Notes under the pieces: generated by a model
Seen by the model: only the letters and a program-made list of their open reading frames with translations
What the model was told of the DNA's origin: nothing
Database searches by the model: none
Origin: Sclerodactyla briareus
Lineage: Eukaryota > Echinodermata > Holothuroidea > Dendrochirotida > Sclerodactylidae
DNA length: 64,000 bases
Direction: 5' to 3'
NCBI GenBank assembly: GCA_026419785.1
Contig: JAODTK010003654.1
Location: 248,001-312,000 of the forward strand
Shown: positions 9,425-60,310 of the stretch, piece by piece
Numbering within the stretch: the stretch's first letter is position 1
Layout of the letters: the number at the start of each line of letters is the position of its first letter
Translations under genes and position numbers: made by a program

Positions 9425-9800
9425 AACTGAAGGCCTTAAAGTCCAAACCGGGAGTCATAGGACTTTCCGTAACGGAGTTAAGTATTTGAAGTTTGGTATG
9501 TGAAGCATGTGTATTGCGAAGATCGAAAGCATCCCATCAGCAATAATAAATGTGTGACTTGACAACCGGCAAACAGTCTGTGGTTCTATGAAATTAAAAA
9601 CATTAATTTCACTCTTTTGGAGTTCGGAAAGCATTTGTCTATGGGAGAGAATTGATGTAGTGGGGGTTAGGGTTGATAGGTACTTTGGTGAGAGGACAGA
9701 CAACAGAACTCTGCTAAATGTTGACTTAGTCAACAAATAAACATCAAATACCAACATAATTCCGTGTTGTCCATGTGTGACGCCATGTATCATTGCGCAA
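9425..9800 (+). repeat. Dispersed repeat, copy 1 (see 16.2 kb)
   Basis: Shares an ordered set of words with 16155-16365: a CATACGACTCT/CATAGGACTTTC-like block, ACGGAGTTA, then GTGTATTGCGAA, and further on GGTTGATAGGTACTTTGGTGAG against GTTGATGGTTACTTTGCTGGG, ending with AATTCCGTGTTGT / ATCGTCTGTGTTGTT. Indels are frequent. Family not recognised. Confidence 0.45.
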
Positions 9801-10244
9801 TTGGCATTCTTCCCAATTTCTCTCTGCCTAATGGTCCAAACTTTGAACAGGCCAATAACTTTCTCACTTTTACCTCATTGAGGTAACATTCGTATTTGTG
9901 AATATTGGTATCTGGACTTCTATCGATTCAGTTTTTCCATTTCCTCTACATCACTTGTTAAATCTTCTCTGTTGTTCCAAGCCGGCATGTGTCCTTTAAG
10001 AACGATTTTTTTTTATCCTAACATGCCGCCCATACCTCCCCACTAAGGCTCTCACCCTCTTGCTGCTATAATCTCCATTTGGTAAACCCCGACAATGACA
10101 CCATTGAAACAAACCATTGCACACTGAAACCCAATATGTGGAACCACTCTCTTTCTGGGGTTACCGTTTCCATACCACAGAACTGAGCTTGATGTGTTGA
10201 CAGACAAATCATCTTCCCCTGCACAATGTTTCATGTGGAACTAG
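9801..10244. other. No supported gene
   Basis: Nothing beyond short frames. The distal half may belong to the repeat that follows, because CAAATCATCTTCCCCTG at about 10205 resembles CAAATCATCTCCCCCCTG at 58.4 kb. Confidence 0.35.
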
Positions 10245-18083: not shown

Positions 18084-18281
18084 TCAATTCGCAAGGAAAT
18101 CAACTCCATGTTTCTTCGCCTTGAGAACATCTCTAACACTCATGCCTCTTATACACATATCTTGTTTTGCCAACACCCCTTTATTCGTTTTCGTTGGTGA
18201 TAGTCCACTGGCTTCAATCGGCGTAAAAGATCTGTGGTTAGGTATCTCATACAAACTATCTTCCACTGGTATCTCAAAAAT
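18084..18281 (-). CDS. Gene A, C-terminal tail exon
   Basis: Begins after a TTTCTGCAG acceptor and reads IFEIPVEDSLYEIP, then stays open to a stop at 18084. Copy B has the matching exon (46787-46886) with VEDS-LYEIP and DLYTPM before its stop. YEIP and DLYTPM resemble tyrosine-centred SH2-docking motifs found in receptor kinase tails. Relative to copy B, copy A carries three extra bases spread over the exon, so its last part may be out of frame and its apparent length (about 66 codons) may be inflated. Confidence 0.65.
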   Translation of the reverse strand: MFEIPVEDSLYEIPNHRSFTPIEASGLSPTKTNKGVLAKQDMCIRGMSVRDVLKAKKHGVDFLAN

Positions 18282-21200
18282 CTGCAGAAAGCAAATTAAG
18301 GGAGAGTGAGTGAGTTGTGACGAAGTTATTGAAATACAATTCAGCGACGCAGATAACACTTGTTTGTATTTTTCATTAGTATTTACAAAGAAAAATAAGT
18401 GTAAATGCCAAATCTCGGTGTTTCATTTGTTAGTCATTTCGGTCCTTAGTTCTTCGTGGGAAGCGTAGGCGACCACCACAAACACGTTACTTACCCTTGG
18501 GGATTCTCTATGAAATAAAATTAGTCAAAATAATGAGTTGGAATGAGTTCCACTTTGACTACGTTCTGAGATTCGTCTGGACGGGCGCTTGTGACTGTCG
18601 TCATGCCAGCAATCAAACAGCAAGTCATTTCTGGAAACGAAAAAAATATGTCCAAAATAGCAGTTCGATATTGCACAAGAACGGACGTTTATACATTGAC
18701 AGTCCTTACCAAGGAAAAGAAAAACTGATGAAGTTCCTCATGTTTAAAAAAGAAAAAAGGAAAACATCCGTATGTTCTTAGCTTACGAGCATTGTCGTCT
18801 TAAGGGCAACTGGCGAAAAAACGAGGCGACCTTTGTGTGCCCTTAACGACTGGAGGGATAATTCGATGCAAATCGCTCGATACGGTATATGGTCATAATG
18901 ATATTCTAAATAGTAAATTAGTCAAAGATCGCGAGGCGATTCTGACGTAACGTCCTTAACAGCCTCGTCCGTTTTTTGGCGGGTGTTGGAAGACGATAAT
19001 CCCTCTTTAATAATGGCGTGATCGATACCGTTTGATACCCGCTCATTCATCTCATGAACATCCTAACCTTTGACTATGCTGCGCCACTGATCTCGTGTTT
19101 ACCACCACTGTTACACCGTGAGACTCAATCGCCTTCAGTGGTGGTGCCTACCCCTTGCACCCAATTGTCGTAAGTAGTGCAACTGCTTATGCGAAGAATG
19201 GTTAGATCTACGTCACAATTTTTTTTTTTTTTCTTTTGACTGATCATTTCTTCATTGAAAGTTACCATGTTGACAGAACGGAACGAGATTGATTCGATTC
19301 AAAAAATCATTATAAACCATAGGCTCTCATCGAAACGCACCTATCTGTGGGTAAATCTCAGGCCACGTTCCTTGTAGTGTTTCCACATGCTGGTTCTTTG
19401 GAGTCGCCTCTTGGTCGGTAGAAAGGCGGAACTCTGGAATAAATTAGGAAAAAAGCTGTCATGATTCTTGCACATTCATATACATGTCCAATTTGAACTT
19501 GATAGATTTGCCTCCTGTAATCTACTCAAAAACTCATTGCTTGGTTCTTTCATGTCTTCTGACCTTGACGACTTTGAGCTTTTCCCAAAAAAAAAGTAAA
19601 AGAATGATGTTTGGGTTCTCCAAATATCATACTCAAAATATTTTTGGGCTTTATGCTAATCTTGCACCTTGAATGACGAAACTCACCCAAGAACACAGGG
19701 TATTCGATCCCTATAGGCAACCCAATTGAAACCTATAGATTTTCTTTTTTCTCTTATTATCGACCCACAATCACAACCGGTTTTATTTACCTTTCCTAAC
19801 CTTGAATTACTTTCAAATGGTTCAAAAGGTTATCGGGGCACGCCCTTCCTCGATATACGCCCCATTCATCTTACTATATGAATACATCCTACACAAACGC
19901 ACAAACACACAACCACACACACACTCGCAGAGCATGCAAAAAAGTCGCACATCGAATCATGTGAGGACATATATTCCTTCGTCTTTGACAAGGATTGACA
20001 AATTCCTGAGTGTATTGATGCTGTTGAACGAGAGGGCAATCTAGGAGTTGCAGATCTCATCATCTTGTGAAATTCTGAGATGAGGAATTCAGCTGGGCTA
20101 CCCCATTCAGACAATTCTTTAAAAAAAACAAATCCGTATGCGAAACCATCTATGGACACACATATCCATGCAACCACCCACAGTAAAATTGATATTAACA
20201 AATATTTATTACCATATCAACTGGTTGCTATGGGACCAACCCCCTAAAACAGGTCTTTACGATGTAACTAGCCTACAGAATATGATGCAATGTGCCCCAT
20301 GGGGTAATGGGTCATTTCTATCACTGTTTCTAGTTGAAGATGCAAAATATCAAGACAAAGTTACCTGCCGATATCTAATTTTGCCATATGACATTCGCGG
20401 TAAACCAACATCGCTGGCGTGCGTATATTCATTCCACAATAGAGCTTCCGGCGAGAAATAGTTAAATGAAACCGCGTCTTAGAATGAATATAGAAATAAA
20501 TCAAAACATATTGAACAGAGCATACCTTCCCATGATACCTTGCTCCCCTCTAAACAGAATTTTACTAGGAGTAGGTCAGTCATCGCAACTGGAATTTACC
20601 AAATGAGCAACGAACCATTACTAACAATTGAGAAGCAGCTTTGCGAATGGCTGCATGACAGGGAGTTAATGACTTCATGCCTTACAATTAGGCCTACCTT
20701 AGATCTCATGAGACTTGCTACTTTTGGCGCGTCTTCAGACAGACAGAAATCATAATAGTTTACAGTGGCCTCCCTCCGATAATAGGACTTTCTCCGTTGA
20801 CAGACCTGGATGGAGAAACTGAAGAAGATATACCATAATGTGTGCATTAACCAGTTGCCAACCTGAATATTTTGTTTGTATTAATACCGGAATAATTGAT
20901 CACCCTTTTTTGATTGATTCAATTATTGTGGCTAGATTTGCCAGAAATGGAGTTTCGTGGGGAAGACCGAGCAGCAACTCCATACTGTCTATACAATATA
21001 CCCTGATCACTCAGATTCCGTACAATCCAGGAGTATACGTTTGATTTGATTTGACTTGATGTGATTTCTACGGGTTCAGGGGTTAACTCGCCTTCTCTTC
21101 TCGACTAGTGCTCAGAGGATATCGAGGCCGGGGTGTCAACCATTTCCCACTCTGCTCCCGAGACTGCCATTTTACGTCGCCTCCGAAAAGACGATCGTGA

Positions 21201-24200
21201 CTCAATGAAATCCGACCACTCTCTCGGAACCTGGAGGAGTGGAAGTCATGTCCAACGCGACTTCTCACAGTCGACCGACGAGACTTATCGCAAATATCCC
21301 GTAAAACCTCATAACCACGCACAAATTCCACTGCATTTCAGCGGAAACCTGAGTAAAGAACATAACCGCGCCCATCGCAAATGGTCATTACAGACAGCCT
21401 CTTAGGGATAAGTGTGTCGGGTGACTGCTGATTCGACCGAATGTCTGCTTGGCAAAGCTCACAATTCTACTCTGCCATTCTTTTTCCGCCCAACCAGGTT
21501 GATGAATGTTGGAGTCCAATAGTCTACATGCTTACGTTGATAACAGAAGGAAATCTTACCCCAAATGAGTGCAAAACCTCCATTGCTTCAAGTATCCACC
21601 AGTTGTCCCGTTTCACCTCGGGTAATGAAACAGGGGAGGTTGAAGAGGTATCGTCAGAAGGGTCTATGGACACTGTGAGATACTTGTCGAGAGTCTTACA
21701 GGCAGTATGTTCCGTGATGAGATAAAAAGCATCGCCTGAGACATACAAACGCTCATGTGAAGATTTTTTACTGTTGAAAAGTAAACAAAAAAAAACTTGA
21801 GATGCGAAGGTTATTGAACATAACGACATGTTCCATGTAGCTCAGACACTGGGCGATCTTTCGGAAAATAAATACCGTATGAAAATAAACCAAGATAGTT
21901 TTTATTGAAGTTTACTGACAACTTGGGATGAATAATGAACTGAAGTAAGCCGCTTACATTTTCCGATTCCAATTCCTTCAACTTTCGTAAGATGATTCGT
22001 GCCTGGTAATTCCAAAGCTCTCTTCACGAACGCATCCCATTGGAGAATTTCTTCTGCAAATTTGATTCTGTGAATAAATAAACAGCTAGGGTGTGTACGC
22101 CTGTAAACAGTTAGTCACGCATTCATCCAGTCGGTTTGACATCAGAGAATTTACTTCATTCTCTAGCATAGTTGAAACCAATGACAGGGAATTCCAATGT
22201 GGCATTATCCATGTTCAGTTGCCCATAAGCTCGTTTGTTTTAAGGTAGATAAAAAGTAGGAGGGCACCATACGATTCTGGGATGATTTACAAGCATCATG
22301 AAATATTCAATGAAAATGAAAACTGTGCACTAATATATACATCCTCATTGTCGTAATTCCCATTTGTGCAAAACCTGTTTTAATAGTCTGTGGACTTGTT
22401 TCAGCGTTTCATGCCGTGATTTCAAACCCTGGCAGCGCCTATGGTTTTGTGTTTTTGCAGTGTCTGGGCACCGGATTGAGTCCTGATTTGATATAACAAC
22501 ATCAATGTCAGTAACAATGGTAATATATTAAAATCCACCAAGCAAGGATATATTGCGGCACTGCCTGACTGAGGTATTCTCGTAAAACATTTTCTTGGAT
22601 GTTTGGTTCCTTAACCCCAGATTCTAAGGTGTCAATGTGGTGTCAACTGGTATGGGGTGTTGCGTGTAACTGAATATTGCAAATCAATTTTGAAGTTTCG
22701 TATTGGCTATCATGTATCTGATCGTAGGTACTGGCTAAAACAATAATGAGAATAATTGACACTATTTTGATTTATCACTAGCAACTCTATGAAATTAGTA
22801 CTAGATGTTTGTTATCACATGAAAAATCATACGAAACGAACAAGTAGCTAGATGAACAGCTGCAAACTTCACGATTGCAAACATTTTTGAAGGAACTAAA
22901 CGCATGAATTTTACTCCATAGACCTCCGCTACACACCATCCTACCTACCTGTTACCGTCGTAATACAACTCTCTTATCGACTTTAGTGGTGTCTTAATTG
23001 TCCCCATCCATCGGTTGTATTTTCTTCCCATTTTCATGTTTCCGATAATACACATCCATCCTCACTTAATCATGTTCTTATCGAAGCTGCCTCCTTGACC
23101 GCCGAATAATAATGGTAGTGATTAACCGAAAGCAGAATTAAATGTAGCGTATATTTGAACAATTTGCATTTAAATGAACCATGCTTGTCATGTTTTGGAA
23201 TGAGTCAACACGCATGTGGATGAACAATAAACTAACTTATTACGACGATAGCTTCTTTTTCTATATAGTAGTAAATGTGATTGGTGGAATAGTGCTTGGT
23301 AATGATAACCAGGGCCTAGCGAGCGGGGGGGGGGGGGGGGTGTGGTGTGTGTAGGACAGCCCCCAATAATTTCGTGCTGTCGCAATTTTCAGTCTTTCGG
23401 CAAAAAGGATAAGGGGAAAGAAAAGAAGAGGGTAGAGAGAATAGGTGAAAAGAAGAGGAAAAGGGGAGGAAGAAAGAGGAGAAGGGAAGGAAAAAGGAAA
23501 GTGAGAGAGGACCATGGGAAGACGGAAAGAAAGAGGAATAGAAAAAAACAACGGTAGCGGCCAGACTTTATTCTCGCTATTCGACTTTTGCCTCTTCACT
23601 AATTGGCCATCCATCGTCGGCCAGAGAATGGCCGCCGGCAAACTAGAGTATTTGACGGTTGTAGCTGTCGGTGTAATTGGACGAGTGCCGGGTCTATCGG
23701 CAAATTCGGCAAAAGGGGGAATAAGGCTTTATCATTTTTGACATTTTTATTTTCCATGAGTACGACAGTACTTTGAAAGTTTTTGTTTCTTGTCTATATT
23801 CCAAGATACATAAAAAAAAAATTCAAGCCATTTTGCTGAAAACAAATTAAGAAAGAATTCCAACAGATGAACAATGAAACAGTCCGGTTCTAGTGCGGGG
23901 AATCATGCGAGGGCCATAGCTAGAGACAGGCTAGAGATAGAAGCCCCCCCCCCCCCAGTTTGTTAGACAAGACTTGGCAGAGAAACGGACTACCCAACTT
24001 TGGGCAAGACATAAGTTAAATCTGGTTAGGATATCTAATGATAAGTGGAAAGCAGATGTACTAAATGGCCGAATCTTGATCAATAGCACCATTGAAGTGC
24101 CAATTTTTTTTGCGCGCTTCGCGCGCCGTGTGTACTTAATGGCCTGCTTCATATAAAAAAACACTCACGAGCTGCAGTAAATCGTGTATGGTTTAGAATT

Positions 24201-27650: not shown

Positions 27651-30600
27651 TTCTTATTATTAGTATTATTAGTCTTTTATTACCAACTATAAACTTACCC
27701 TTATCGAATTCTTTTCACGTAATTGCGTAATTCCTGATTGTTCGCGGTCTACGGTTGACTGCGAAGAAATGCAGCATTTCATTAAAATTGCAATGATGAC
27801 TTTTACATTAGTGTCATCAAAGATGCCAGAAGGAAAACCATGAATGGAACCAGTCAAAAATCCTGTAGAAGTTTGAAATTGCCGATATCCGACCGTCCAG
27901 AAAAAACAACACTATTTTGTGATAATGACTATTTAATAACCTCTATATTATCCAAATCCGATACCCAGGATCATAAGTGACCCCAAGGTAGGCCTACAAC
28001 CAGTTGGCATCCCAATCATTACAATTGATTCCTCTATAACACTAATAACAACCACTAGCTTTCTCTGATCAGAATGGAAAGTCGGCAACCGCATCAACAA
28101 AGCTGGTGTTCGGATACTCTAAAAATGAATAAAGATCATGCTCGAATGATTCGTGACCCACGTTTTAAAATAATTTAAGGCCTTTTTAAATATTTAATGA
28201 GAATATTACTCGTTGTATAATTTCTTTCGGCTCATTAGAGGCGGCTGATCCTCTGTCTTTTGATATTACCAAACTGACGGAGCTGTCATATTCTTGAAGA
28301 CGGTGAGCAGACGCGATATATCTAAAGTTATTTATTTGGTCTAAACTAAAGAAGTGGTTCGAATTTACAGCAGCACGGACGGTCTGGACCATGGCTCATG
28401 GATGCCCTAGCTTGATTACAAAGGCTCCAGACAGAAGAATATGTCTATCAGTGGGTATTTTTTTTGAAAAAGAGGGACTCGTAGCCTATTAACGAACTCT
28501 TACACACTTCGTGAGGAAAAGCGTGCAAATTTAATAAAAATTACAAGCATTCCCCGTATACAAGACATCCTTAATATCCCTTTCACAGCCATTAGAAATA
28601 CATTTATAGCGGGTAAGTGAGAGACGAAACGACTCGTAGTCTATATAGCCATGGGGTTCAAAGAAATATCTCCACGCCAATGACGCCATAGTCATCGATG
28701 TAAAAATACCATGAACCCACCATTAGAGACCATCATTACTAACAGGTGCACCACAAACCTAAGCTCTCACTACCTTCTTCTTTCTATACCAAATATGAAA
28801 TAATAAACTAATCTACTTACGTGTGATATTCGCCGTACTTGAAGCTGTTGATTAAAGGATATTTGACATCAACTGTTTTACTGATTTGGACCAGACCTCT
28901 CTCCCTCCTCCCAGTGACCATATGCGAATCTTAGGTCACTTATGTTATAACATGTGTTGGGATGGGCTTGACCACAATAACAAAGACATTATTATCAAGG
29001 GTCTACGTTTCCAGGACACTTGTAACTGTTACTTCACCCTCTGACTTCTTGGCTATAACGACCACCCATAACACCAGGAAACAGACACATATCACATGCT
29101 ATACCGATGATAATCACGAAGGTGGAACTGTATGCAGTGCCCAGCCTTTGACAACGGACTGGGGTAGATTCGGGTCCTGGAAGAGGAATAATATCAATCA
29201 TTATAAGCGCAGCCATAGCGCAGTTAGGACGTTAATTACAAATGTTTTCTGCCTAATAACTTTTAGTACTCAATTGAAAGAACAAATCGTTAGTCGGTGT
29301 AACTGTCCCCTTCCGACACTGAGTGTCTAGACCTCAGACGATGGTTGAATAGGTGGTCAGCTAACTAATAACTTCATCGGGGCCAATAACTCCAAGAGTC
29401 TGGAATATGGTTTGGTGGCGAACCCTCTGAACGTTTTTACCATGCTGTGACACAAAATACAAGGATAACGATTTATTACTAGGTCTATATAGACTAGGTA
29501 AAGAGAGGATCGACCTGATTACAGTCTACACATGTATGGCCAGTAAATCGTGCGACATAGTCCAATTACGCCTGTCCAGATCAACGCGAAGAGCAGACGA
29601 TGTCCATCCAGCGTATAGTCCACTCATACTCGCAATTCACCGTCTTCACTTTCTAGACTTATGTAGCCTTTAGTGTGTACCGTGTGCCAATGAAAGGTTC
29701 TAGTAAGTCAAAAACAAACAACTTCGCTTTAATTCATATTTGAAGTATTGTCTGGAGCTGGTTTATTTGATTAAATTTCAACTTGCTGTAGATGAACGGA
29801 ATTCGCGTAATGGCCGGGTGGGCATGCCGTCCTCGTCCGCAATGCAGACGTAAGGCCCTCGTGCTCGAACTCCAAGGCTTTGTTCCTCGCATATGCTGCC
29901 AACAAAAGGAACCGTGTTCTCTCGTTTTATGAAATTGAGTTTTCTCTGGAATTGGATTGGTTATTGAGGTGTCGACTTCGGAGAATAAACAAAATTTTAA
30001 TAATTATTTCACCTGATAATCCGGCATGGAGACACGCCCCTCATATCCCTTGGTCCTGAGACGTCCGGCACGTCCGGCAACACTACTAAAAAAGGAATCT
30101 CATCGGTGCGCACATAAACACTAGGATTGATGACGTGAATTATCAGCAATAACATGTGTGGCGTTGTAGGAGTTGTGAAATCAGCAGTGCCAGCCCTAAA
30201 TCCCCTAGGAGTGTGATACACTACTTTGAAAACGCCTATTTTAACAGAGCTCACGATAAAATTTGCCTGATTTTCATATTTTAGGGAGTTGAAGAAGTGT
30301 TGGTACAAAATATTTATATCCATATATATCTCAAGCTGAGAATTTTCAGTTCAGTTGTTGTGGTCTTTTTCATAACGTGTATGGGACGAAAACTCGTCAG
30401 GTAACCCTACATAAGGAGTAATCAAAATATAAGTTACACTACTGAACCGAATCAGTCAACTATAGGCTTTGTTGGAATATTATGAACGAACTATAATTAA
30501 GCAAAAAAATATTGTTTACATAGCACAACTACCATTTTTATTAAAGAGCATTTACGCTATTCTCCCTATTGCAGTTTCTTTTTTTATATTCGCCGTACAT

Positions 30601-33960: not shown

Positions 33961-34073
33961 TTTTGAACTGTCGAACTCAGCTTTCGAACTGTCGGATTCA
34001 GTTTTCGAACTGTCGGATTCAGTTTTCGAACTGTCGAATTCAGTTTTCGAACTGTCGAATTGGAATTCGACAG
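33961..34073 (+). repeat. 21-bp minisatellite ending in a 10-bp-arm hairpin, copy 1
   Basis: Five units of TTTTCGAACTGTCGRATTCAG (33961-34060) end at 34052-34073 in a perfect inverted repeat, CTGTCGAATT-GG-AATTCGACAG. The unit is a multiple of three, so the plus frame encodes seven-residue repeats (FELSDSV), but there is no sign that this is a gene. A related element with the same hairpin arms is at 63.4 kb. Confidence 0.85.
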
Positions 34074-40860: not shown

Positions 40861-41182
40861 TCGGGATCTCTCCTAATACTAGTTTAGGTTATCAAGTTAT
40901 TACGTATGGATAAATACAATTGCCGTTGCAGAAGAATAGACCCGGAATATCCACCACGGTCTGCCGTGAGAGGCGACTAAAGGGAGAAAAGGGTACAACG
41001 TGAATAATATTGTGACAGAGCTGTCGAAACAAAGTACTGACCGTTTTGAGATCTCCACAAATACTAGTTAAGGTTATCACGTATGAATGAATACAATGGC
41101 CGTTGCAGAAGAATTGACTCGGAATATTAACCACGGTCCGCTGTAAGATGGCAACTAAAAGGAAGGACTGTATAAATCAGTG
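40858..41182. repeat. Tandem repeat, unit about 185 bp
   Basis: AATACTAGTTTAGGTTATCA (40875) recurs as AATACTAGTTAAGGTTATCA (41060), followed in both by CGTATGRATRAATACAATKG, CCGTTGCAGAAGAATWGACYC and a GACTAAA/AACTAAA block. The minus frame encodes the same repeat (FFCNGHCIHSYVIT / FFCNGNCIYPYVIT). Confidence 0.8.
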
Positions 41183-41855
41183 ACTTCGGAAATATCATGA
41201 CTCCTCGTTCTACGTCATAACTTTCCTAGGCCTGCCCATAAAATGATACATTTGTGCTGCAACACCAGTCTTTATTTTGCGTACTTTCTTTTAAATTATT
41301 TTATTTGAATTCTACTGGTTCAAGAAGCACGGGAGGCTCATCAAGGAACTGGCCATATTGATCGTGAGTGAGCATCGGCGATACCTCCCCTTATTCTTCT
41401 CGACTATGCTCAGATGATATAAAGGCAGGGGTGTAACCAATTCCAACCATCCTAAGGGATGTCATTCACGCCCTCCCCCGAATAACGTTCAGTGAAATCC
41501 AGGACCCTACAGTTTTCTAGGAACCTGGAGCAGCGGCCGAGTCATGTCCAACGTGACTGCTCACAACCGACAACAAATATCACGTAATAAACCCAGTTAC
41601 CCCACTGGATTACAGCGGCACTATGACGTGAAGACCAAGACTCCGCCCATCACAACTGCAAGTACAGCCATCTCAGGAAGAACCCCAAATGTCAGTGATT
41701 TAAGCAAAACGTCAGTGATATCACTCTGCCCATTCTCCCGTCCTTAGTTTTCCCATTCGAAAAGCGTTCGGGGGTGTCAACCATTCTTACCACATGTTGA
41801 GGACATTGTGAAACCTGCATGGCAACTAAAAGGAAGGACTGCATAAATCAGTGAC
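41145..41855. mobile_element. 0.6-kb dispersed element, copy 2, flanked by direct repeats
   Basis: The segment 41183-41818 matches 51488-52135 nearly end to end and 21080-21410 in part. It is bracketed by ATGGCAACTAAAAGGAAGGA...AAATCAGTGAC at 41145-41181 and again at 41819-41855, i.e. a 37-base direct repeat with one mismatch. The flanking word belongs to the 185-bp tandem repeat, so the element appears to interrupt that array. Superfamily unknown; no terminal inverted repeat seen. Confidence 0.6.
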
Positions 41856-45790: not shown

Positions 45791-45915
45791 AATCCGTTCT
45801 CTGCAGGGGGTGTTTCCCTCACTCTTGGGGGGTGACCAAGATCATTATTATCCCCGTTCTCTGCAGGGGGTGTTTCCCTCACCCTTGGGAGGTGACCGAG
45901 ATCATTATTATCCCT
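45791..45915 (+). repeat. 60-bp tandem duplication
   Basis: Two full units of CCGTTCTCTGCAGGGGGTGT...GATCATTATTATCC with period exactly 60 and a few substitutions, plus a short partial third unit. Confidence 0.9.
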
Positions 45916-46786: not shown

Positions 46787-46886
46787 TCATTCGTTTTCGT
46801 TGGTGATAGTCACTGGCTTCATCGGCGTATAAAGATCTGTGGTAGGTATTTCATACAAAACTGTCTTCCACGGATGTCTCGGAAAT
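46787..46886 (-). CDS. Gene B, C-terminal tail exon
   Basis: After the acceptor TCCCTATAG the exon reads ISETSVEDS, then after a one-base shift LYEIPTTDLYTPMKPVTITN and a TGA stop at 46787-46789. LYEIP and DLYTPM are candidate phosphotyrosine docking motifs. The first is shared with copy A. The stop probably marks the true end of the family's protein. Confidence 0.65.
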
Positions 46887-49800
46887 CTATAGGGAATGAA
46901 TGAAGAGGGAGGACCAGGTTTATTAAAAATAATTGGGGAAAATTAGGCAACGTTGGTATCGACATACTCTTTTGTAATCTTTATTATCAATATCAAGAGA
47001 ACCATCGGAAATGATGTTTGCATACTTTCCCGATCTTTTGATATTTTCCATTTCATTAGAGGATATAAATCTCCAACTCATTATTCGAGTCTGGAACTAG
47101 TAGTCCATCTCTACAAAATATGTTTCCATTCACCAAGTGATATTCGTATCATGAGAGATGATAATCGAGAATTAAGAAATGAATAGGCAACTCATGTTCA
47201 ACTCTGGAACTATAGTATCCACCACTACGAATACGTTTCTCTTCACCAATGGATATAGAAAAAAGTAATTCGAAGATTAAGTTACCAATTTGAACGACGT
47301 TCGGCAGATTCTTAATGGAAGGGCGCTTGGTGGGACTGTCTTCCTCCCAGCAATCAAACAGTAGTTCATTTCTGTTAACAAGAAAATATTATAATATATC
47401 AGTTCGATGTTGTGTTTCCCGTATTGTGTTGTCCATTCATACAAAATGATATTCAATTTGACGCACAGGATGCGATTTTTATATATCTGTGGCCTAATGT
47501 TTCTGGATAACTACGTGGAATATTGTCATTGTCGAAGATCGATGACATCTACCGGTCAATTTTCTTTTAGTCAGAACTGATGGTAAAACTGCTTTGGTAT
47601 ACACTATTTTGAGTTACAGTGCTTGACCTTATGGGCCTATAAATTGTTTCTAAAATGAAATTTATCCGTGGCTCTTCAGATCTAAGATTTCAAGATTAAC
47701 GTGCGGGATCGACAAATAATGACAACCTGCAGTGTTAATATCCAAGAGACCACAAAGACAAATTGAATAGCTAGGGCGACCAATTTTATCATGAAGATTG
47801 TGATTATTCAGAGGAAGGTGCGCGGGCAGGCACCATGCACTACCGTTGTTGAGACATAGTCCTCAACTTACCCTGAGTCAGGACACGATCACATTTGAAC
47901 AATGCGCGAGCTGAGAGGCCAAAAACATTGCCAGGAGTTCATTCTTCATTCAGTACGTTGTGACATAATAATTTTTTGTTGGCTTTTGTTCGGCCAAACC
48001 TGAAGCCAAACCTTGTCGGAGGCGCTCACTACTTGGTTTTCCCTAGTCCTGGTGATTGTAAGTCATCATAAGATGCCTGCCTTCACCTTCCCAAATCTCC
48101 GAATTGACCTATCGTAGCACAAAAGACGTTACAGTGGCTGAACTTCCATCATAGAGATGCCACACATTGGACTATACCTCATTTGTGGGTGATTCTCAGG
48201 CCATTCGCCACTCGGTGCTTCATCGATCAGTCGGGATCGCCTCTTGATCAGCGGGAAATGGTGGGATGCCTAGTTAGAAGTGAAGTAGGATTATATATTG
48301 TAGTAGGCTATAATGAAGTGTAATGTATAATGTATACGTATAACGAAGGACACTCTTTCTTTCCTGTACAAGAGAAGTGAAGAAGTGGAGTAAATCAAGT
48401 AAATTACCGCAATTTACTGGATATTCTACAGTAAATTATTTACAGTGTAGCTTACAGTATATATTGGTCATGATGCGTCGATAGTATAATCATATATTAA
48501 TTATATTATTTACTTTCGCACTTTATTATACTTCGCAGTGGGTAATATTACTGAATAAAGTTACTGCCGAGACAATTTGCCATTATGCCAGTAGCTGTGG
48601 GACCAGGACATCGCTGGCTTGTGTATATTCATTCCAAAATAGAGCCTCCGGCGAGAAATAGTTGAATGAAAACCGCGTCTGGCGAACCAAGGAGGCAGAG
48701 AAATTGTCTAACTACGAAGACAATCTCTGTATGAATGCATCGGTTCACTGGGAACATGATTGCACCAAGAGTAGGTCGGGTTATACCCACCGAAAAATAA
48801 ATGAATTGACATTGTACATAAGCTAACCAAATGATACAACGAGTTAAGCAGGAAGTGTTTTAAGATTAACGAAAAACAAACTAGGTGTCGATTATTCAAT
48901 GCCCTAAAATTACCTTAGATCTCATAAGAACGGTCACTTTTGGTGCGTCCTCAGACAGGCAAAAGTCATATAGTTTACAATGGCCTTCCTCCGACAATAG
49001 AAATTTCGTCGACGACCAGGGGTTTTTGAAGAAACTGAAGAAACTGGTTGAAAACAGATGTTACTGGAATTGTGACGTCAGTCGAAAGGACAACTTCGGG
49101 CGTGAATACAAGAGATGTTACATCGTGGAGAATGGAAAACTGTATCTATAGGTCTAAACCCCATTCAATACGATGTTCCTATGTGGAGTTATTGGCCTTC
49201 AAAGTTTGGTCCATTATGCAGAGAAATTGGGGAGAATCCATTGCGCATAACGGCATGTCGTCACACTTTTTGGTGGAAACAACACGGAAATTATGCCTAT
49301 GTATTTCATTGTTCTATTGGTTGAATGAATCCAAAATTTGGAAGTTCTGTTGTCTTTCTCTCACAATAGTAGCCACCAACACCCTACTAACCCTCTACAG
49401 CAATCCTCACCCATAGACTTAATGCTTTATCGAAGTGATAATATGTGTGAATTCCAATAGAGAACAAAAAATGTTTGCATGGTTGTGAAAGTATGAAATC
49501 ATTTATTATTGCATGATGGATGGCTTTTGAATCTTGCCATACACATGCACAGACTTCAAAGTACTGTACTCTGTGACGGAAAGTCGTATGGAACTTCTTG
49601 TGTAGGACTGAGCGCATTCAGTTCTCTTCTCCATCCTAATCTATTGCCTCTTATATTTCATTCGATTTGCCCTTTAATTCTCCGGCGAAGTATATATTGA
49701 GGTGGCATTTCAACTAGCAAACATTGGACAGCCATACAACCATCTTTCATGAATTCGTCTTCTTGGACGTGTTGTCCCTGGGGTCGAGTCCCAGTATCGA

Positions 49801-52800
49801 TCGACATAGTAGAGTTCCCCTTAAACCCGATCAGCCACCCCATTATTAGTCATCTGCGATTTCCGAGTGCATTCGTAGTACCGCTCTCAGCACAAGTGAC
49901 GTTTTTACATACAATAACATTCCACCATTGAAATACACACTGTCACAAACGTCGACCCTCCAGGAGAGCAAAACATACAGAAGTAAAGGCAAATAATGTG
50001 AAATCACACAACTGCCCATCAGATATTCAAAGTCCAAGAGATGGGTAAAACCCCTCGCCTATGCTTAGGTTTCGTTTAGATTCCAACACGTCTTTCCGAA
50101 GCTACAGTCCGAAGCTGTACTGACATGCAATCTCTAGGAATGAATACGTGTGTTGCCTTTTTCTCTTTCAGTCAGTTTTAGCACTTGGCAATGGATGCTT
50201 GTACCATCTTGCACGAGGGCCTATCGTATCGGAGAGCTTATTTGACCTCTAGGATAGGATGAGTGCATTATCTACAGTGGGTATCCAACAAACGAGAAAT
50301 GACGCGGAGCAAATGTGATTATATAAATGTCGAATATATATGCACATGTTAGGGTATGGATGAGAAAACACGATATACATCTCGTCGGGAAGCCGTAGTC
50401 CCCATGAAGTGCTAGTAAACTTATCTGCCACGTGGGAAAATTTGGCTGCCGACATTGCGTTCGATTTAAGCATAGCCGGAGCTGAACATAAAAAGCACAA
50501 TCTTCCAAGTGTAGTAAGCATCTAGTAAACAAACTACCCATCACCCCATAGGAGTGTAGCACCTCCATTGCTTCGAGTATATCCCGTTTAATATGTGTTG
50601 CGCCGCTTCAGGGATGAGAAGGAGTGGCTGAAGAGTCTCGTCGTAGAAGGGCTGACATCAATAAACTGAAAGACATTTGTCGAGATCTTTTGCAGACGCC
50701 ATCCTCTCGTAATGAGATAAGGCCGTCACGCTGCATAAGAATATAGTGTTAGCTTGAAATTTTGGCCCTGTTTTTAAAGACCGGGTTCTCAACACTGACG
50801 AGCACGTTTCACGTAGCTTCTCAAAATCATCTATACGGATATCAGTGTACTTGCGAAAATGTGTGAAGAAGTGATCTACTGAAGAAAACTGCTTACATTT
50901 TGCGATTCGCAATTCCCTCCACCTTGGTAAGATGATTTGTCTCCGGTAATTCCAAAGCTCTCTTACGAAGCCATCCCATTGGCTAATCTTCTTTTGCAAA
51001 TTCGATTTCTGGGAGTAAAATGGAAGGGATTCACATCACGGTTAGGTTGCCCCTGCCGACAGTCAATACATATAACTAATATCTACATTAACATTTCTCA
51101 TTGTTGTTTTTTGTAAAATAACCCCCTTCAACAATGAGACAAAATCGTCACAACATTACATTCCACATTTTCCGACGCTGATACAAGATCTTGATTTGAC
51201 AAATGTTAAACACTGGTGAACATCCGAATATTCTAATTCCGATATAGGCCTAATAATGTTCATGAGGTTATCGATCATCGCAACTTTTCTTCTTACCAGA
51301 AACTGAAAAAAGAAGAAACAAAACATGTTTTATCTTCGAAATGCGTCGTTTTTTGAGGTTATTGTACGTATTTATGTTGAATTATTCAGTGTGTGTGATA
51401 TTTAAGACTCACAGAGTCGATTGGTCTAACAAAATCGACCCCGGAGACCTTAGAGTAACCACGAGTCACCACTTGCGGATGAACTATACCGACTTCGGAA
51501 TATCATGACTCCTCGTTATCGTCTCACTTCAAAGGCCTGCCCCTCAAACCGACATTTGTGCTGCACACCAGTCTTAATTTTGAGTAATTTTCTTTATTGA
51601 TTTGAATTTTACGTTTCAAGAAGCCAAGAAGGCTCCATCAAACCTCTGGCCGTATTGATCGGGAGTGAGCACGGCGATACTTCACCTTATCTGCTCGCCT
51701 AGTGCTCAGATGAATCGACGCGGGGTGTAACCCGTCCCACCCAACCAGCCCCCCCCCACCGGCCCGGACCCGCCGTTTTTAACGTTCATGGAATCATGAT
51801 CCGACACTTCTCGGAACCTCCGGAAAAGCTAGAGAGTCATTTCAACGTATTGCTCACAACCCGACAAAAATATTCCCGCAATAAACCCATTTACCCCCTG
51901 AATTACAGCGGTACCATACGTGAAGAACAGGACCCATCGCAACTGCAGGTACACCCACCTCTGAGAAACGTCCGCGTGACGGCGATTTTGAGCCTGAACT
52001 GTCCTGCTTGCAAAGCGTCTGTGATATCACTCTGACCATTCTCCCGTCCCTTAGTTCCCTTCGGAATTCATCGTCGGGGTGTCACTCACCTCCTTGCGAC
52101 ATGCGGAGGACATTGTGAAACCCTGCATGCCTTGTCTCGTAAATTTAGCTCACGTTTTGATACTTTCTAACAATATAACGACTAGCGGAATTCTCACCAA
52201 AAGGTCATGTTGAGTACCACAAATATGAACCAGGCGAACGACAAGTGACGGAGTTTGAACTGGCTAATGTAATCGTACAGTGTTTTACAGAGCCTAAAGG
52301 TAGAGAGAAGGAAAATCTACGAGTTAAACACGAACTTAATTCATAGGCAGGTAGGGGACATGAATTCCGACCATTTCGGCAGCACTTGTTTCTGAGTGCG
52401 GTACATCTATCTAGCGTCAGGTTTAACAGGCCAGCAGCCACACATTCTAGAATAGCCTCTAATACGGTAAACCCTCGTGACTACTCCACACCATGAAGAC
52501 AGGGTTTTCTGCTTAGAATGCCTAGTCGTGTAGACCGGAGCTGTATAAGTGTTAACTATCTTCGAACATTACTTCGAACATTACTGCTCGTACGTACCCG
52601 TCACTGTTGTGAATACGACCCTTTTATTTGTTTCAGTTGAAGTCGTGATAGTTTTTCCATCCATCGAATGTATTTCCTTCCAGTTTCAAGTTCAAACACG
52701 ATGAGACACATTTGAATCGTCTCTTAGATCAGATGTTACTAGAATAACCGCTCCTTCACAGCTGAATAGTAATGGTAGTAAATCTGTTTAGAACAATAAT

Positions 52801-55800: not shown

Positions 55801-58800
55801 TTGAGCCAGCAGACAGGGACATTGAGTTAAAGGTCACCAGAGACCAAAGGGTATGAATCTGATTCACCACGAGTTCTACTGCACTGTCGTATGATAGAAT
55901 CAACTTCCGCGAACAGTAAGCTGGTGTCACTCTTGCAACGTCTCTGAAGATAATTCGCTCATTAAAACCAACACAGTCTCTTAAAAACCAATGCGTGACA
56001 TGGAACCGCAAATTGATGAATGCTCTCATGAGAGGTTGTGTTACACTTTCTACCCATTTCCCCCAGATGATATGGGTAGGGTAACAATTGGTCATAAAAA
56101 AAACAAGTTCCCATACCCAAAAGAGGACACCCTTGTTCAGTCCTTGGATATGAATTTGAATCGCCAAACTTACCTTGTGATATTTGATGACACGGATGAG
56201 GCTGTTGATGGAATAGGAGAAGAAAAGTTAGGACTCTTGGTGTTGACAGTAATCTATATCAGGTTGCTTCAGGAATCAGTCATTTGACGTGAATGGTAGA
56301 AGCCATACAGTTCAAGGTCAAGGTAATTCTACTTCATCCCCTCCTCCCAAAAAAAAAAAGGAAAGAAAAGGAAAAAACATTAAAACAAGATTAGAACAAG
56401 GATCTAGAGCTTACTTTACCAGTCATTTCCGTCATTGTTAAATGGATATGGACAAGGGAGTAGAGGAACCAGAAATAAGTAGCCCGGTCCCTGGGAATTC
56501 TGCTCTCAAATACGAGGTAAACATATAAATGCACGAAATAGACTCGAGACTATTCCATGATGAACCACCTCTCACTTTCTTGGCTATAACGACTACCCAC
56601 AGCAACAGGAAACAGGGCATATCACAGCTATACCAAGATCATCACGACAGTGGAAAGTATGGGTTGCTCCTGTCTGGGCAATCTGGACGGTGAGGGGTAG
56701 ATCAGTCCTGTGAGAAGGAGGACGTCATTCTTCAGTTAGTAGGATAACTTTTAGATGATAAATTTTCACATTTTTTCTAATCAACCATCTGCTTTACAAA
56801 TATTATTCAATTGATAATTGAAGAAAGAAATATGCTCTGGTCACAGTGGCCCACTTCAGAAAACAAAGGGCCCAGGCCTCTACATATCAATGGCCAGCTA
56901 CTAGTTTTGTGACCCGCTAACAAAAACACTTCAACCCGAGGGATTGGTGAGAAGAGTTACAGTCTGGCGGTTGCAGTAGCAGCTTAACCGTGAAACGGTC
57001 AGGCAGGTAGCAGGACATATCATTTGACTAAGGGAGTGCCCTATTTGTTAAACATACCATATCTATGGGGACGTGAAGAGGCGGAACAGGAACGTGAATC
57101 GTTCATGCCTGTTTCGTTCAACTTGGACACTATTTGAAAGTGTTGGCGGGCCATGCACGTTCAAACAGCATCCTCCTATCCATGCGTATTTTTTTTTTTG
57201 GAGGGGTGCTACCCACTCCAACGGAGGCTGAAACATTATCCCGAGCGCACTGATAGCAAGTGCCATTTCACACCTTACTCGGTCCTCTGTCTCCAATTAC
57301 CCTGTCCCATGACGTGTGGATGGTTTGTTTTGTGTAAACCGTTGAAAATGTAAGTAGAAACATCACAATATATTCACAATAAGAAGATTACCGGTATTTC
57401 CGTGCTGCTTGTAGTAACACAAAGTCTACAGCTAACACAATGATTCTAACTGCGGATTACTGTAGGTTCAGCGAGATTTGACATGACATACTCGTATGCC
57501 GTCCCATGCATGCCAATCACAGGCGCCATTGTCGCCTCCAAACCAGCACGTTTTGGCTCACATGCTGCCGATAACACTATCTTGCTCTTTTGGAGAAGCA
57601 GTTTCCTCTCTCGAGATAGATTGAACTTGACGGTGTCCCGAAATCCAGAGAGGTATAGAAGCATATTAAAAAAAAAAAAGGGGGTGTTCACCTGAATATT
57701 CTCCCGATGGAGAGCTTACGATAACTCTTCGAAAATAATCCTTCCCCACCCACCGTCGTGGTGTTACCAATTTGGTTTTGACTGACAGCGCATACTATTG
57801 GTGTATGCCGGGGCGTGGCCAAACGTCGAAATAGAGGCAGGGAGGATCCACTAGAATCTCTGTCTTCCTTTAACTGGTTCCCCTCTCCAGCAAGTACAAT
57901 TTCTCGTTAACATTTGGACGGGCTCCCTGGCACCTCACAGATGGATGGACAGCTGGTTTCGTTTCGATGCTCCACGCGTGTTCTCTTGCTTCTCTGCTGT
58001 ACCATTTATGTGCGATGAACCTCCGGCAACATACTATGTGAAAGAAAACAAGTGCCGTCAGAACGTCTTGGTACTGCGGACAGCAAAATTCCAGTGGCAA
58101 ATACCCGCATGTTATTTTCGCCACTTTCACATTATATGTTCGTTCACATTTAACTGACCTCTACTGACATCGTTCCTAACCGTGGATGACTAGGAACATG
58201 TCTACCACATTGGCCTTATATTTGCTTATCAGTGCCCAGCACAAGCAATGCAGCCAAAACTCATTCCTAATCCTTCGGCAGTCACATTGGAACACAACTT
58301 CCCACAGAATATGTCCCCAATAGGAATTGGACTCATATGAATGTAAACAATCCCTGAAAGGCAGGACTAAGTAACACTAGGGCGAGTTGTGCTAAAGAAC
58401 AAATCATCTCCCCCCTGGACAATAGGTGTTAATATGTCAACTAGGCGCAGATTGGCCCTTCTGACAGAGAATGTAAACACTGCTCCGGGGCAGAGGATTG
58501 GAGTATGTAAAAAACAAACTTGTCTGGGCAGCAGAGATCTCCAATAAAGAGTTGAAATGGGGTAATTAATTGGATTTAATTGAAATCTTATCACAATGCA
58601 ACATTAAAATGTCACTCAGAAGCTAAGGGCCAGCCAGTAGAAGCTTCTTTCCCCAGACCAAGTTCCAACCTGATCGCATGGTATGTTTAGAAGTTATGAT
58701 GAACGTGACGATCAGAAGGGACAACTCGAACGAACGGAGAACGAACGAACGGACGAGAGACATGAGGAACTTGTAGAGCTGCTGTCTCCCGCAGCTAAAA

Positions 58801-60310
58801 AAATCCAGTACATGGCGGTAAATGGTTCTGGTACTAATTCATACCAGGAGTGATGTTCAACATTTTTTTCAGTGTTTTTCCATATTTAATTTCAACGAGA
58901 GTTTGTATGTAGCCTACTCTCAGAATATAATGGCACAATTCGTGAGAGAGACAACCGGACAGCAGAACTTTGCACAACCGGTATCACACATAAAAAAAAT
59001 CCCACTACATGAGTATAGGAAAACTCTGTACCAGCAAATTGTGAAAATGTTTTCTGGCACTGATACGAATGGTTCTAGCATACCGTTAAACTTTCAGATG
59101 TTCTTGAATTTTAGGATATCCTTATGTTTCTTTTCTCTCGATCGACAGAAGCTGCGTTAGTGGACTGAAAGAAGTTTGTACAATTCTTGAAATCAGACTG
59201 TGTCATTACGATATTCATCGTTCGCTCACTGCTATTCTGCGCTCTCTCCTCGTGTGACTGGACAGTGTTACGATGTGAATAGAGAAATGAAAACACAGAA
59301 CAATTAGTCACCTATGGCAACTATTGGTATATTGTAACGAGTCTAGAGTTGAGGTATTCTTGCGTACAAAAATTAACGAGGGACTGTCGTAAATTAACTA
59401 AATATTGTAAAAAGATACTGCACCCAGCAATTTTGATGAAAAATTGGAAACCAACTGGTATATTCACGCATTCTTCCGTCCAAATTGAATTGATGTAATA
59501 ATATTGAAAGTAGGTGATTCAGAATTATACCGAGTTGTTGCTGCACATTACGATATTTTGTCGTGACGTCATTACAAAAAATTTGACCGTCGCTTGTTGC
59601 TGGACGCTAGCAACTACAATAATCTTTAATATATGTGTTCTTTTTGCAAAAATAAGAAAAAAGGTTCATTTCAGTTCACGGGGATCTGCTCAATTTCACA
59701 ACTATAACTGCTCGTGAGGAAGAAATATTTATATATATAATTTTTTATATTTATATTATTTTTACACAAGTTTGTGTACAAAACTTCGTGTAACGTTTAC
59801 ACAGGCAGATTCAGGCTACAGTAACATAAGAAAGTGTAGACATGAGTATCAGTATATGAGTAGAATATCCTACACTCTAATATTGCGTAATATTCACCAA
59901 TAAACCTCGTAGTAGAGGTAATACTCCGTATGTCAAATCTAGGAAATTAATATGAATTTGTCCATTCAAACCAAGACTTACCATATGTATGAATAGATGC
60001 ATTTATGCTGAATCCCCTATCTGCAAATTGCCCGTTTTTGTATAGAGCCGTACATGAAATTAATTCATTCCTCATCTCTGGAGTGTTATACGTCAAGGAC
60101 CCAGACGTTGTATTCGTGCGTTGAGGATCCTGTTAGGCTTTGGATGTTTTGAAAGATATTCATCAGCGCTCATCTGTCCATTGATCGACCATGAGATATT
60201 CACAGCTGGTCGGGCGCAGTTCGCCTGCGCGTACATACTGCTACCAACGATGTATGTTCTTCAATCCAGTGTACTCCAGGAGGAATAACTCCGTCAATGG
60301 TCAGAGACAT
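46787..60310 (-). CDS. Ig-domain receptor tyrosine kinase-like gene, copy B (locus span)
   Basis: Tandem paralogue of copy A with the same exon order: Ig exon, transmembrane, juxtamembrane, alpha-C, hinge/alpha-E, catalytic loop/DFG, APE, alpha-G, alpha-H/I and tail. Offsets between matching exons are 27.5-29.5 kb, so intron lengths differ only moderately. Only one Ig exon was recognised here (two in A). The catalytic loop lacks HRD and DFG is DFC. Introns hold a copy of the 0.6-kb element, a tRNA-derived SINE and a CR1-like LINE tail. APE, alpha-H/I and alpha-G exons join in one frame (...PENHPQMR/NELLFDCW), while catalytic-loop, alpha-C, hinge, transmembrane and Ig exons each carry a shift. 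Confidence 0.75.
47286..47371 (-). CDS. Gene B, kinase alpha-H/alpha-I exon
   Basis: 86 bp, fully open, acceptor TTCTTGTTAACAG, donor ATTG/GTAACT. Reads NELLFDCWEEDSPTKRPSIK, the receptor tyrosine kinase CW..D...RPS block. The first base completes the last codon of the alpha-G exon (CAAATGAG), giving an intact junction PQMR/NELL. Confidence 0.85.
48178..48269 (-). CDS. Gene B, kinase alpha-G exon
   Basis: 92 bp, acceptor TTCTAACTAG, donor GAG/GTATAG. Two frame pieces are recognisable: GIPPFPADQEAIPTD and, in the frame that continues into the next exon, SGEWPENHPQMR. GIPPFP is at the place of the PYPG turn of kinases. A shift lies between the pieces. Confidence 0.6.
48604..48678 (-). CDS. Gene B, activation-loop/APE exon
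   Basis: 75 bp and fully open: TRFSFNYFSPEALFWNEY then TQASDVL. It starts in phase 0 directly after MRSK of the previous exon. SPEAL is the APE equivalent and ASDV begins alpha-F. Acceptor GGTTCGCCAG, donor CTG/GTCCCA. The next exon 335 bp downstream starts at the alpha-G side, so the usual WSFG.L.WE segment is not visible. Confidence 0.85.
48914..49034 (-). CDS. Gene B, catalytic-loop and DFG exon
   Basis: 121 bp, the same as copy A; acceptor GTTTCTTCAG, donor AAG/GTAATT. It reads FLQKPL at the HRDL position, then after a one-base shift STKFLLSEEGHCKLYDFCL and SEDAPKVTVLMRSK. HCKLYDFCLSEDAPKV is identical in both copies, whereas the catalytic-loop residues differ between them and neither has HRD. 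Eight of the codon differences to copy A in the conserved half are synonymous. Confidence 0.85.
50545..50767 (-). CDS. Gene B, kinase beta-4/hinge/alpha-E exon
   Basis: About 223 bp. YILMQRDGLISLREDGVCK and DLDKCLSV match LYVSGDAFYLITEHTACK and TLDKYLTV of copy A in alternating frames, and EAMEVLHSYG before the donor (GGG/GTGATG) is alpha-E. The central Ser/Thr-rich insert is diverged. Acceptor AAAACAG at 50768 is the best candidate; the upper boundary is less certain than in copy A. Confidence 0.65.
50897..51008 (-). CDS. Gene B, kinase alpha-C/beta-4 exon
   Basis: 112 bp, acceptor TTTACTCCCAG, donor AAAAT/GTAAGC. RALELPETNHLTKVEGIAN matches RALELPGTNHLTKVEGIGI of copy A. The start (EFAK..ISQWDGFV) is in another frame, so a shift lies near the middle. 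The open frame of 113 codons across this position is a shadow of the exon. Confidence 0.75.
51488..52135 (-). mobile_element. 0.6-kb dispersed element, copy 3, in gene B intron
   Basis: Closely parallels 41183-41818: CGACTTCGGAATATCATGAC, TTGTGCTGCACACCAGTCTT, TATTGATCGGGAGTGAGCA, AGTGCTCAGATGA, CTCACAACCCGACA, ATTACAGCGGTACCAT and TGCGGAGGACATTGTGAAAC occur in the same order. It lies between the juxtamembrane and alpha-C exons of gene B; copy A has its own partial copy in a different intron, so insertions were independent. Confidence 0.65.
52598..52760 (-). CDS. Gene B, juxtamembrane/cytoplasmic exon
   Basis: Ends at a CGG/GTACGT donor. ELETGRKYIRWMEKLSRLQ lines up with GRKYNRWMGTIK of copy A, and both donors occur about 70 bases after this motif. 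The acceptor is not resolved. Confidence 0.5.
52761..55137 (-). other. Gene B intron region with a possible cytoplasmic exon
   Basis: A minus frame at 54060-54383 (107 codons, basic start VVRKQPPWKSRKQRY) may be an additional juxtamembrane exon, but no homologous block was found in gene A. A CGATAC/GTCACGACC palindrome-family fragment lies at about 53640-53730. Otherwise there is nothing recognisable. Confidence 0.3.
55138..55234 (-). repeat. tRNA-derived SINE head
   Basis: On the minus strand CGTAGTGGTTGGCACGAT (A-box-like) is followed by GGCCTCCACCCGGGAGACCG and GGTCGATTCTCG (B-box-like GGTTCGATTC). This is a tRNA-type promoter region, but the arms do not close into a complete cloverleaf and bases are inserted, so it is a retroposon head rather than a tRNA gene. 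Confidence 0.6.
55290..56330 (-). mobile_element. Decayed CR1-like LINE, 3' reverse-transcriptase part
   Basis: Minus-strand remnants in frame-shifted pieces: KDNRILRIAECNLGFL (about 55730), FEQLVRPHL (about 55660) and RRATRSIHSLRD (about 55530) correspond to the KANriLglI...f..LVRPhLEY...vQRRAT..i..L module downstream of the YADD motif in CR1/Rex-type LINEs. An open 126-codon frame at 55787-56167 lies in the upstream part. It sits in the gene B intron just below the transmembrane exon and is heavily broken. Confidence 0.6.
56569..56707 (-). CDS. Gene B, transmembrane exon
   Basis: 139 bp, identical in length to copy A; acceptor CTTCTCACAG, donor GAG/GTGGTT. Hydrophobic pieces STVVMI, GIAVICP and CFLLLWVVVIAKKVR match copy A piece by piece. 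Two single-base losses separate them. The helix ends in AKK, a stop-transfer signal, leaving the kinase inside the cell. Confidence 0.75.
56708..58394 (-). other. Gene B ectodomain intron region
   Basis: Contains the possible ectodomain exon at 57446-57691. The minus frame at 57870-58130 (86 codons) is open but unrecognised. Poly-T at 57189-57200 and poly-A at 57667-57678. Confidence 0.3.
57446..57691 (-). CDS. Gene B, possible ectodomain exon
   Basis: An 81-codon open minus frame (FRDTVKFNLSRERKLLL, SKIVLSAACEPKRAGLEA). It shares nucleotide blocks with 29760-29975 of copy A at the matching location between Ig and transmembrane exons. The reading frames of the two copies do not yet agree, so coding status is uncertain. 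Confidence 0.3.
   Translation of the reverse strand: MNTPFFFFNMLLYLSGFRDTVKFNLSRERKLLLQKSKIVLSAACEPKRAGLEATMAPVIGMHGTAYEYVMSNLAEPTVIRS
58395..58765 (+). repeat. Dispersed repeat with ACGA-rich tail, copy 2
   Basis: Counterpart of 10205-10565, with the same ordered blocks and a tail of ACGAACGGAGAACGAACGAACGG. It lies in a gene B intron. Confidence 0.5.
58766..59981 (-). other. Gene B intron region
   Basis: AT-rich. TATTTTGTCGTGACGTCATTAC at 59556 belongs to the palindromic element family. ACACAAGTTTGTGT at 59765 is a small palindrome resembling parts of the 38.9-kb element. The 112-codon plus frame at 58822 is unrecognised. Confidence 0.35.
59982..60310 (-). CDS. Gene B, Ig-domain exon
   Basis: 329 bp, acceptor CTCCCCAG, donor ATATG/GTAAGT. 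In order: SLTIDGVIPPGVHWIEEH, TSLVAVC (first Ig Cys), ARPAVNISWSINGQ (core Trp), then after a diverged middle NELISCTALYKNGQFADRGF (second Ig Cys). This is a recognisable I/V-type Ig fold. The pieces lie in more than one frame. It is the best-preserved of the three related Ig exons in the window. Confidence 0.7.

Follow-up and report, generated by a model that had tools for sequence, protein, structure and literature searches.

Receptor guanylyl cyclases are membrane receptors with a pseudokinase domain. Receptor tyrosine pseudokinases are a known kind of protein, and humans have eight separate genes for receptor pseudokinases (PMC13259870). The vertebrate receptor tyrosine pseudokinases EphB6 and EphA10 are single-pass receptors in which several catalytic residues have been lost together. 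EphB6 reads VAIQ, Arg in alpha-C, HRSxxxxS and RLG, and EphA10 reads VAVH, HRGxxxxH and GFG (PMC13259870, Table 2). HER3, a partly dead receptor kinase, acts through an active partner; its DFG, its VCIK and its loop Asn are intact, and it differs at HRN and the alpha-C Glu. PTK7/CCK4 is a receptor pseudokinase that retains HKD and VLVK and reads ALG (both PMC13259870). In Caenorhabditis elegans, FLOR-1 of the KIN-16 family is described in PMC10523662 as a pseudokinase that lacks the Gly loop and, reading HRALALRS, both the Asp and the Asn of the catalytic loop; it pairs with the active OLD-1.

We analyzed a stretch of 64,000 nucleotides of the sea cucumber Sclerodactyla briareus, hereafter the window (C2299:248001-312000), within a genome of 319 Mb in 3171 contigs. 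The window holds two copies, A and B, of a multi-exon gene that lie in tandem on the minus strand; the gene includes a membrane-spanning exon and encodes a kinase-like domain. The reading that we favor, and consider probable, assigns the tandem copies A and B to a lineage-expanded receptor family with a single membrane pass and a tyrosine-kinase-like pseudokinase domain, in which the catalytic loop is mostly HPG and DFG has become DFC. On this reading they would act as ligand-gated scaffolds or allosteric partners. In the single membrane pass and the joint loss of several catalytic residues the family resembles EphB6 and EphA10. Unlike these two, it carries HPG, often has Lys in place of the loop Asn, and has a DFC that keeps the Asp; it also has many copies in one genome and no Eph domain recognized in the ectodomain pieces tried. 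Like the receptor kinases of the KIN-16 family, it would be specific to its lineage and include pseudokinases, but HxDxxxxN is present in OLD-1 and other KIN-16 members (PMC10523662), whereas HRD was found in 0 of 24 loci here. Like HER3 it would be a partly dead receptor kinase that works through an active partner, and more has been lost here.

Organization of the two gene copies

Comparison of the window with itself gave six blocks shared by A and B, with spacings of 27.5-28.9 kb. A more sensitive comparison of the gene spans gave eight DNA blocks. Seven of these lay on exons of one gene, one of the seven spanning the catalytic and APE exons together with the short intron between them, and the eighth lay on an interspersed repeat. 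The gene order is membrane, beta1-3, alpha-C, hinge/alpha-E, catalytic, APE, subdomain XI and tail (Table 1). The beta1-3 exon is marked by KMGRKYNRWMGTI and the alpha-C exon by QWDAFVKRALELP.TNHLTKVEGIG; the hinge/alpha-E exon of copy A has MEVLHSFGV as its last residues, the subdomain XI exon follows the pattern LLFDCW..DS..KRPS, and the tail carries LYEIP.

Table 1. Exons of copies A and B (window coordinates) and the actin stretches used as a control (contig coordinates).
Feature	Position	Strand	Remark
Copy A transmembrane exon (hydrophobic run, frame broken inside, end VVVIAKK)	29036..29216	-	DNA match to copy B, protein match to C1227
Copy A juxtamembrane and beta1-beta3 exon (MKMGRKYNRWMGTI)	22939..23119	-	Exon type without kinase profile match
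Copy A alpha-C exon (EEILQWDAFVKRALELPGTNHLTKVEGIGIGK)	21958..22067	-	Acceptor CACAG, donor GTAAGC
Copy A hinge to alpha-E exon (YLITEHTACKTLDKYL...LEAMEVLHSFGV)	21557..21730	-	
Copy A catalytic-loop exon (LHPGLSTEKVLLSEGGHCKL, then YDFCLSEDAPKVASLMRSK one frame over)	20698..20818	-	
Copy A APE exon (FNYFSPEALLWNEYTHASDV)	20386..20466	-	
Copy A subdomain XI exon (RNDLLFDCWHDDSHKRPS)	18579..18632	-	
Copy A C-terminal tail with tyrosine (IFEIPVEDSLYEIP)	18240..18281	-	
Copy B likely ectodomain exon (LTYNTPEMRNELISCTALYKNGQFADRGFSINASIHTYG)	59956..60096	-	62% match to C1227; no Pfam domain
Copy B likely second ectodomain exon	57745..57932	-	Match to C1227; no Pfam domain in C1227 pieces tried
Copy B transmembrane exon, frame broken inside	56568..56730	-	
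Copy B juxtamembrane and beta1-beta3 exon	52588..52779	-	
Copy B alpha-C exon, frame broken	50892..50993	-	
Copy B alpha-E exon (ILEAMEVLHSYGV)	50542..50640	-	
Copy B catalytic-loop exon, one frame (FFKNPWSSTKFLLSEEGHCKLYDFCLSEDAPKVTVLMRSK)	48914..49034	-	
Copy B APE exon (SFNYFSPEALFWNEYTQASDV)	48592..48669	-	
Copy B subdomain XI exon (RNELLFDCWEEDSPTKRPSIKNL)	47305..47373	-	
Copy B C-terminal tail (ISETSVEDS; LYEIP in another frame)	46844..46886	-	
Actin stretches (L033-L035)	C1260:167400-170900, C2792:242500-243200, C2792:267400-268000		

Other features of the window were also recorded. An interspersed repeat occurs at 41182-41821, 51491-52129 and 21084-21383 (68-73% alike), and introns of gene copies B and A each contain one of its occurrences. 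An inverted repeat of 0.4 kb (9456-9860 and 49187-49590, 72% identity) is possibly a mobile element. Two short tandem arrays (45794-45914 and 33961-34061) consist of a 60-base unit present twice (95%) and a 21-base unit present about five times. A tRNA scan of the window found none.

In the catalytic exon of copy A, one frame gives FLHPGLSTEKVLLSEGGHCKL and the next frame gives YDFCLSEDAPKVASLMRSK; the exon of copy B reads FFKNPWSSTKFLLSEEGHCKLYDFCLSEDAPKVTVLMRSK within a single frame. The strings on which the original prediction was built are indeed present in the DNA, but both copies need frame corrections. A continuous KLYDFCLSEDAPK in copy A does not exist, as the frame changes between KL and YDF. 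The FLQKPL reported for copy B is a real string that lies in another frame than DFC and cannot read into it; upstream of DFC, its own frame gives FFKNPWSSTKFLL.

The designation of the gene as a receptor is supported by the transmembrane exon upstream of the kinase-like exons. Judged by eye, this exon encodes an unbroken hydrophobic run followed by AKK in the paralogue on contig C1227, and its counterpart is frame-broken in A and B. Copy B and C1227 have in common two cysteine-bearing exons 5' of the membrane exon, and these exons of copy B (57745-57932 and 59956-60096) probably encode the ectodomain. Six ectodomain pieces compared with Pfam gave no domain. At the other end of the gene, the LYEI tyrosine was found in four of 17 regions searched, which are the four with a recognizable tail; C1657b and C2074c gave weak tail-like matches that we attribute to chance.

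Catalytic and fold residues across the family

A search of the whole genome with four catalytic-exon peptides recovered at least 24 catalytic-exon loci. The genome search scores the best candidates only and locus counts are lower bounds; the queries carried HPG or DFC (that of copy B DFC alone), and the matches at C2807, C1697, C2909 and C1908 were weak (E 0.03-0.5). HRD was read at none of the 24 loci found, and its position was occupied by HPG at 17. The seven other loci read FKNP (copy B), IPG (C3134), HHV (C2074c), HPC (C2200b), CKG (L049) and QPG (L050), with no motif in C1227. Therefore, the loop is not invariant, and the departure of copy B and its near paralogue C1227 from HPG is evidence against our reading from within the family. 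At the DFG position, 21 of 24 loci had DFC or EFC (EFC in three), and DFG was found in none of the 22 that could be read; the remaining three were C2807, which has DFW, and C1657e and C2909, whose frames were unreadable. The Asp of DFG is itself retained at 19 loci (18 DFC and one DFW).

The codons of the motif were then tabulated for the 17 HPG copies. The Pro was encoded by CCG in 10, CCT in four, CCC in two and CCA in one, and the Gly by GGT in nine, GGA in four, GGG in three and GGC in one. For Pro and Gly alike, each of the four codons is in use, indicating that HPG has been kept as protein; on this codon evidence, HPG at 17 of 24 loci with synonymous variation is more than chance. HPG and DFC/EFC share one frame in seven of the 17 copies (C2995a, C2995b, C1657a-d and C2987) and lie in different frames in another seven (copy A, C2995c, C2074a, C2074b, C2200a, C1908 and C1697). 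The last three are C2807, with DFW, and the unreadable C1657e and C2909. On C1657, seven family loci are clustered on both strands between about 207 and 376 kb; HPG is present in five of these, and most have the loop Asn, as FMDN.

Searches with the beta1-3 exon (16 matches) and the APE exon (13 matches) showed no HRD-bearing sibling. They returned the same contigs, one copy without a catalytic exon, and two other kinase loci, on C3080 and C2924, of which the C3080 loop was read. Locus L048 (C3134:26500-33300) has beta1-3, alpha-C, hinge and alpha-E exons and no catalytic exon in the stretch examined, and is possibly truncated. As a comparison, we read seven non-family kinase loci, chosen for loop coverage from the 36 PF07714 matches listed. 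The catalytic Asp was kept in all seven (five HRD, one YRD and one HAD). Beyond the loop, L037-L039 read DFG and L046 reads DLG. The HAD locus, L036 (C3080:40750-41450), reads HADLAARN, has no DFG and is not HPG; we take it to be a PTK7-like receptor pseudokinase separate from the HPG family.

The original prediction had named HRD and DFG intact in relatives as the result that would speak against a pseudokinase. Among paralogues of the same genome, which stand here in place of orthologues, neither motif was seen (HRD 0/24, DFG 0/22 readable; HPG 17/24, DFC/EFC 21/24), and this supports the pseudokinase interpretation.

The evidence of kinase-likeness comes from paralogue exons on C1697 and C1657. 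The APE/alpha-F exon of C1697 matched PF07714 at 3.5e-7, above the Pfam cut-off, and matched Trk, Eph and EGFR chains in PDB. The C1657 catalytic exon matched PF07714 at 8.9e-4, below the cut-off, and aligned to FGFR2 ungapped (E 0.007) with HPG over HRD and DFC over DFG, so that the register assumed in the original prediction holds. A profile of 12 catalytic-exon pieces gave a best PDB match of only E 0.039. Genome-wide, family loci on C3134 and C1697 scored above the PF07714 cut-off among the 36 matches listed. Compared singly with Pfam, the copy B APE and XI exons and the copy A hinge exon had no match. Where the matches cover them, the structural residues are nearly all present. The APE Glu is found in 13 of 14 regions; for the alpha-F Asp the figure is 12 of 14 and for the alpha-I Arg 11 of 12, the last count omitting the C1227, C2074a and C2074c matches, which were out of gene order or did not cover the residue. 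Fold residues kept while catalytic ones are lost would be the pattern expected of a pseudokinase.

We also considered a receptor guanylyl cyclase. This was rejected, as none of the guanylate-cyclase (PF00211) matches listed fell on a family contig; the five were on C2675 and C2194.

Frame breaks, selection and alternative explanations

The frame breaks raise the question of whether A and B derive from a receptor kinase that was once active and are now pseudogenes in decay, with the odd motifs as random damage. The catalytic exon of copy A and the alpha-C exon of copy B are both broken, other family loci are broken as well, and the C3134 copy has no catalytic exon in the stretch examined. However, breaks of the same kind occur in actin in the same assembly, where we counted at least six frame-breaking gaps in about 1.4 kb (three 3' stretches of about 470 coding bases each). 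Given this indel-rich assembly, frame breaks are weak evidence of gene death. The substitution pattern also stands against decay. The dN and dS values were 0.09 and 0.67 for A and B (83 codons), 0.06 and 0.86 for A and C1227 (91 codons), and 0.03 and 0.64 for B and C1227 (70 codons). The resulting ratios of 0.05-0.14 suggest purifying selection, although the blocks were picked for reading through, which biases dN down somewhat. Among distant paralogue pairs dS ran from 1.26 to saturation and dN from 0.23 to 0.55; the counts omit two APE blocks (C1657a and C2074b). The DNA likeness of A and B, which carries no read-through bias, is largely confined to exons, apart from the block that crosses the catalytic-APE intron, and agrees with the dN/dS values. 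Random damage is also at odds with one motif at 17 of 24 loci in varied codons. We therefore regard decay as unlikely.

A less probable alternative is that the family is an unconventional but active kinase in which another residue replaces the HRD Asp. The retention of the DFG Asp at 19 of 24 loci is in its favor, and so is the loop Asn. The original prediction had this Asn of HRDxxxxN as absent, which is true of copy A, where it is Lys, and of the STRK-type paralogues, also Lys, but not of most of the C1657 cluster. Against activity, the position of the catalytic base is a Gly, the VAIK Lys is likely missing, the Gly loop is degenerate and no candidate base is evident. In the clean copies a Thr or a Ser stands at the likely beta3 Lys position (VVLTT, VFVST and VLASI), and the likely position of the alpha-C Glu is an Arg in the conserved FVKRALEL. 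Both assignments are by position only, because the two N-lobe exons had no kinase match in Pfam or PDB. Taken together, we consider a working enzyme improbable.

It could also be argued that LHPG is intron beside the splice acceptor and that the real HRD is encoded one exon earlier, since LHPG directly follows a CAG acceptor and the preceding exon ends in LHSFGV. But FLHPGL is kept with synonymous changes in distant paralogues, the fit on the IHRDL of FGFR2 is gapless, and the preceding exon stops short of the HRD position, so that this explanation is very improbable.

That sequencing or assembly errors cover a normal HRD/DFG kinase is hardly credible: the assembly is indeed error-rich, as had been feared and as actin confirms, but the recurrence of one motif at 17 loci in differing codons indicates that error is not its source, and HRD in 0 of 24 and DFG in 0 of 22 readable loci contrast with the catalytic Asp in seven of seven other kinase loci of the same genome.

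Proposed signaling and significance

The pseudokinase receptor reading thus accounts for A and B best. At the level of sequence, the family has no HRD at any of the 24 loci read, no DFG at the 22 readable there, nearly all fold residues, a hydrophobic membrane exon and a low dN/dS. From these we infer that the kinase-like domain would be unable to transfer phosphate, and the A and B receptors probably signal via binding partners rather than as enzymes. In the proposed mechanism, the ectodomain would bind a ligand or a partner, and the cytoplasmic kinase fold would serve as a scaffold or allosteric partner. An active receptor kinase may then phosphorylate the tail tyrosine (LYEIP), on which SH2-type proteins could dock; these steps are proposed by analogy with HER3 or the OLD-1/FLOR-1 pair of the worm.

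A bolder extension is that a fixed HPG/DFC pseudokinase is the only signaling route of a whole duplicating system of recognition receptors in this animal. About two dozen loci, differing in their ectodomains, would then share one dead cytoplasmic scaffold and rely on the same active kinase partner, forming a receptor array for innate immunity or self-recognition. We offer this as a speculation with a small chance of being correct.

Loops of the HPG type may be found in other invertebrate proteins, which would lower the novelty of the family. Among the open-licence papers listed in our searches, no HPG/DFC receptor family appeared in titles or the starts of abstracts, and a search for the motif strings gave one unrelated Arabidopsis match. 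The available part of PMC8662651 mentions no HPG/DFC receptor family. Among those papers we saw no report of this variant of the receptor tyrosine pseudokinase, a large family in one genome without HRD at any locus read. The results also caution against taking frame breaks in this assembly for gene death. If confirmed, the family would be a natural test of the role of the kinase fold once catalysis is gone.
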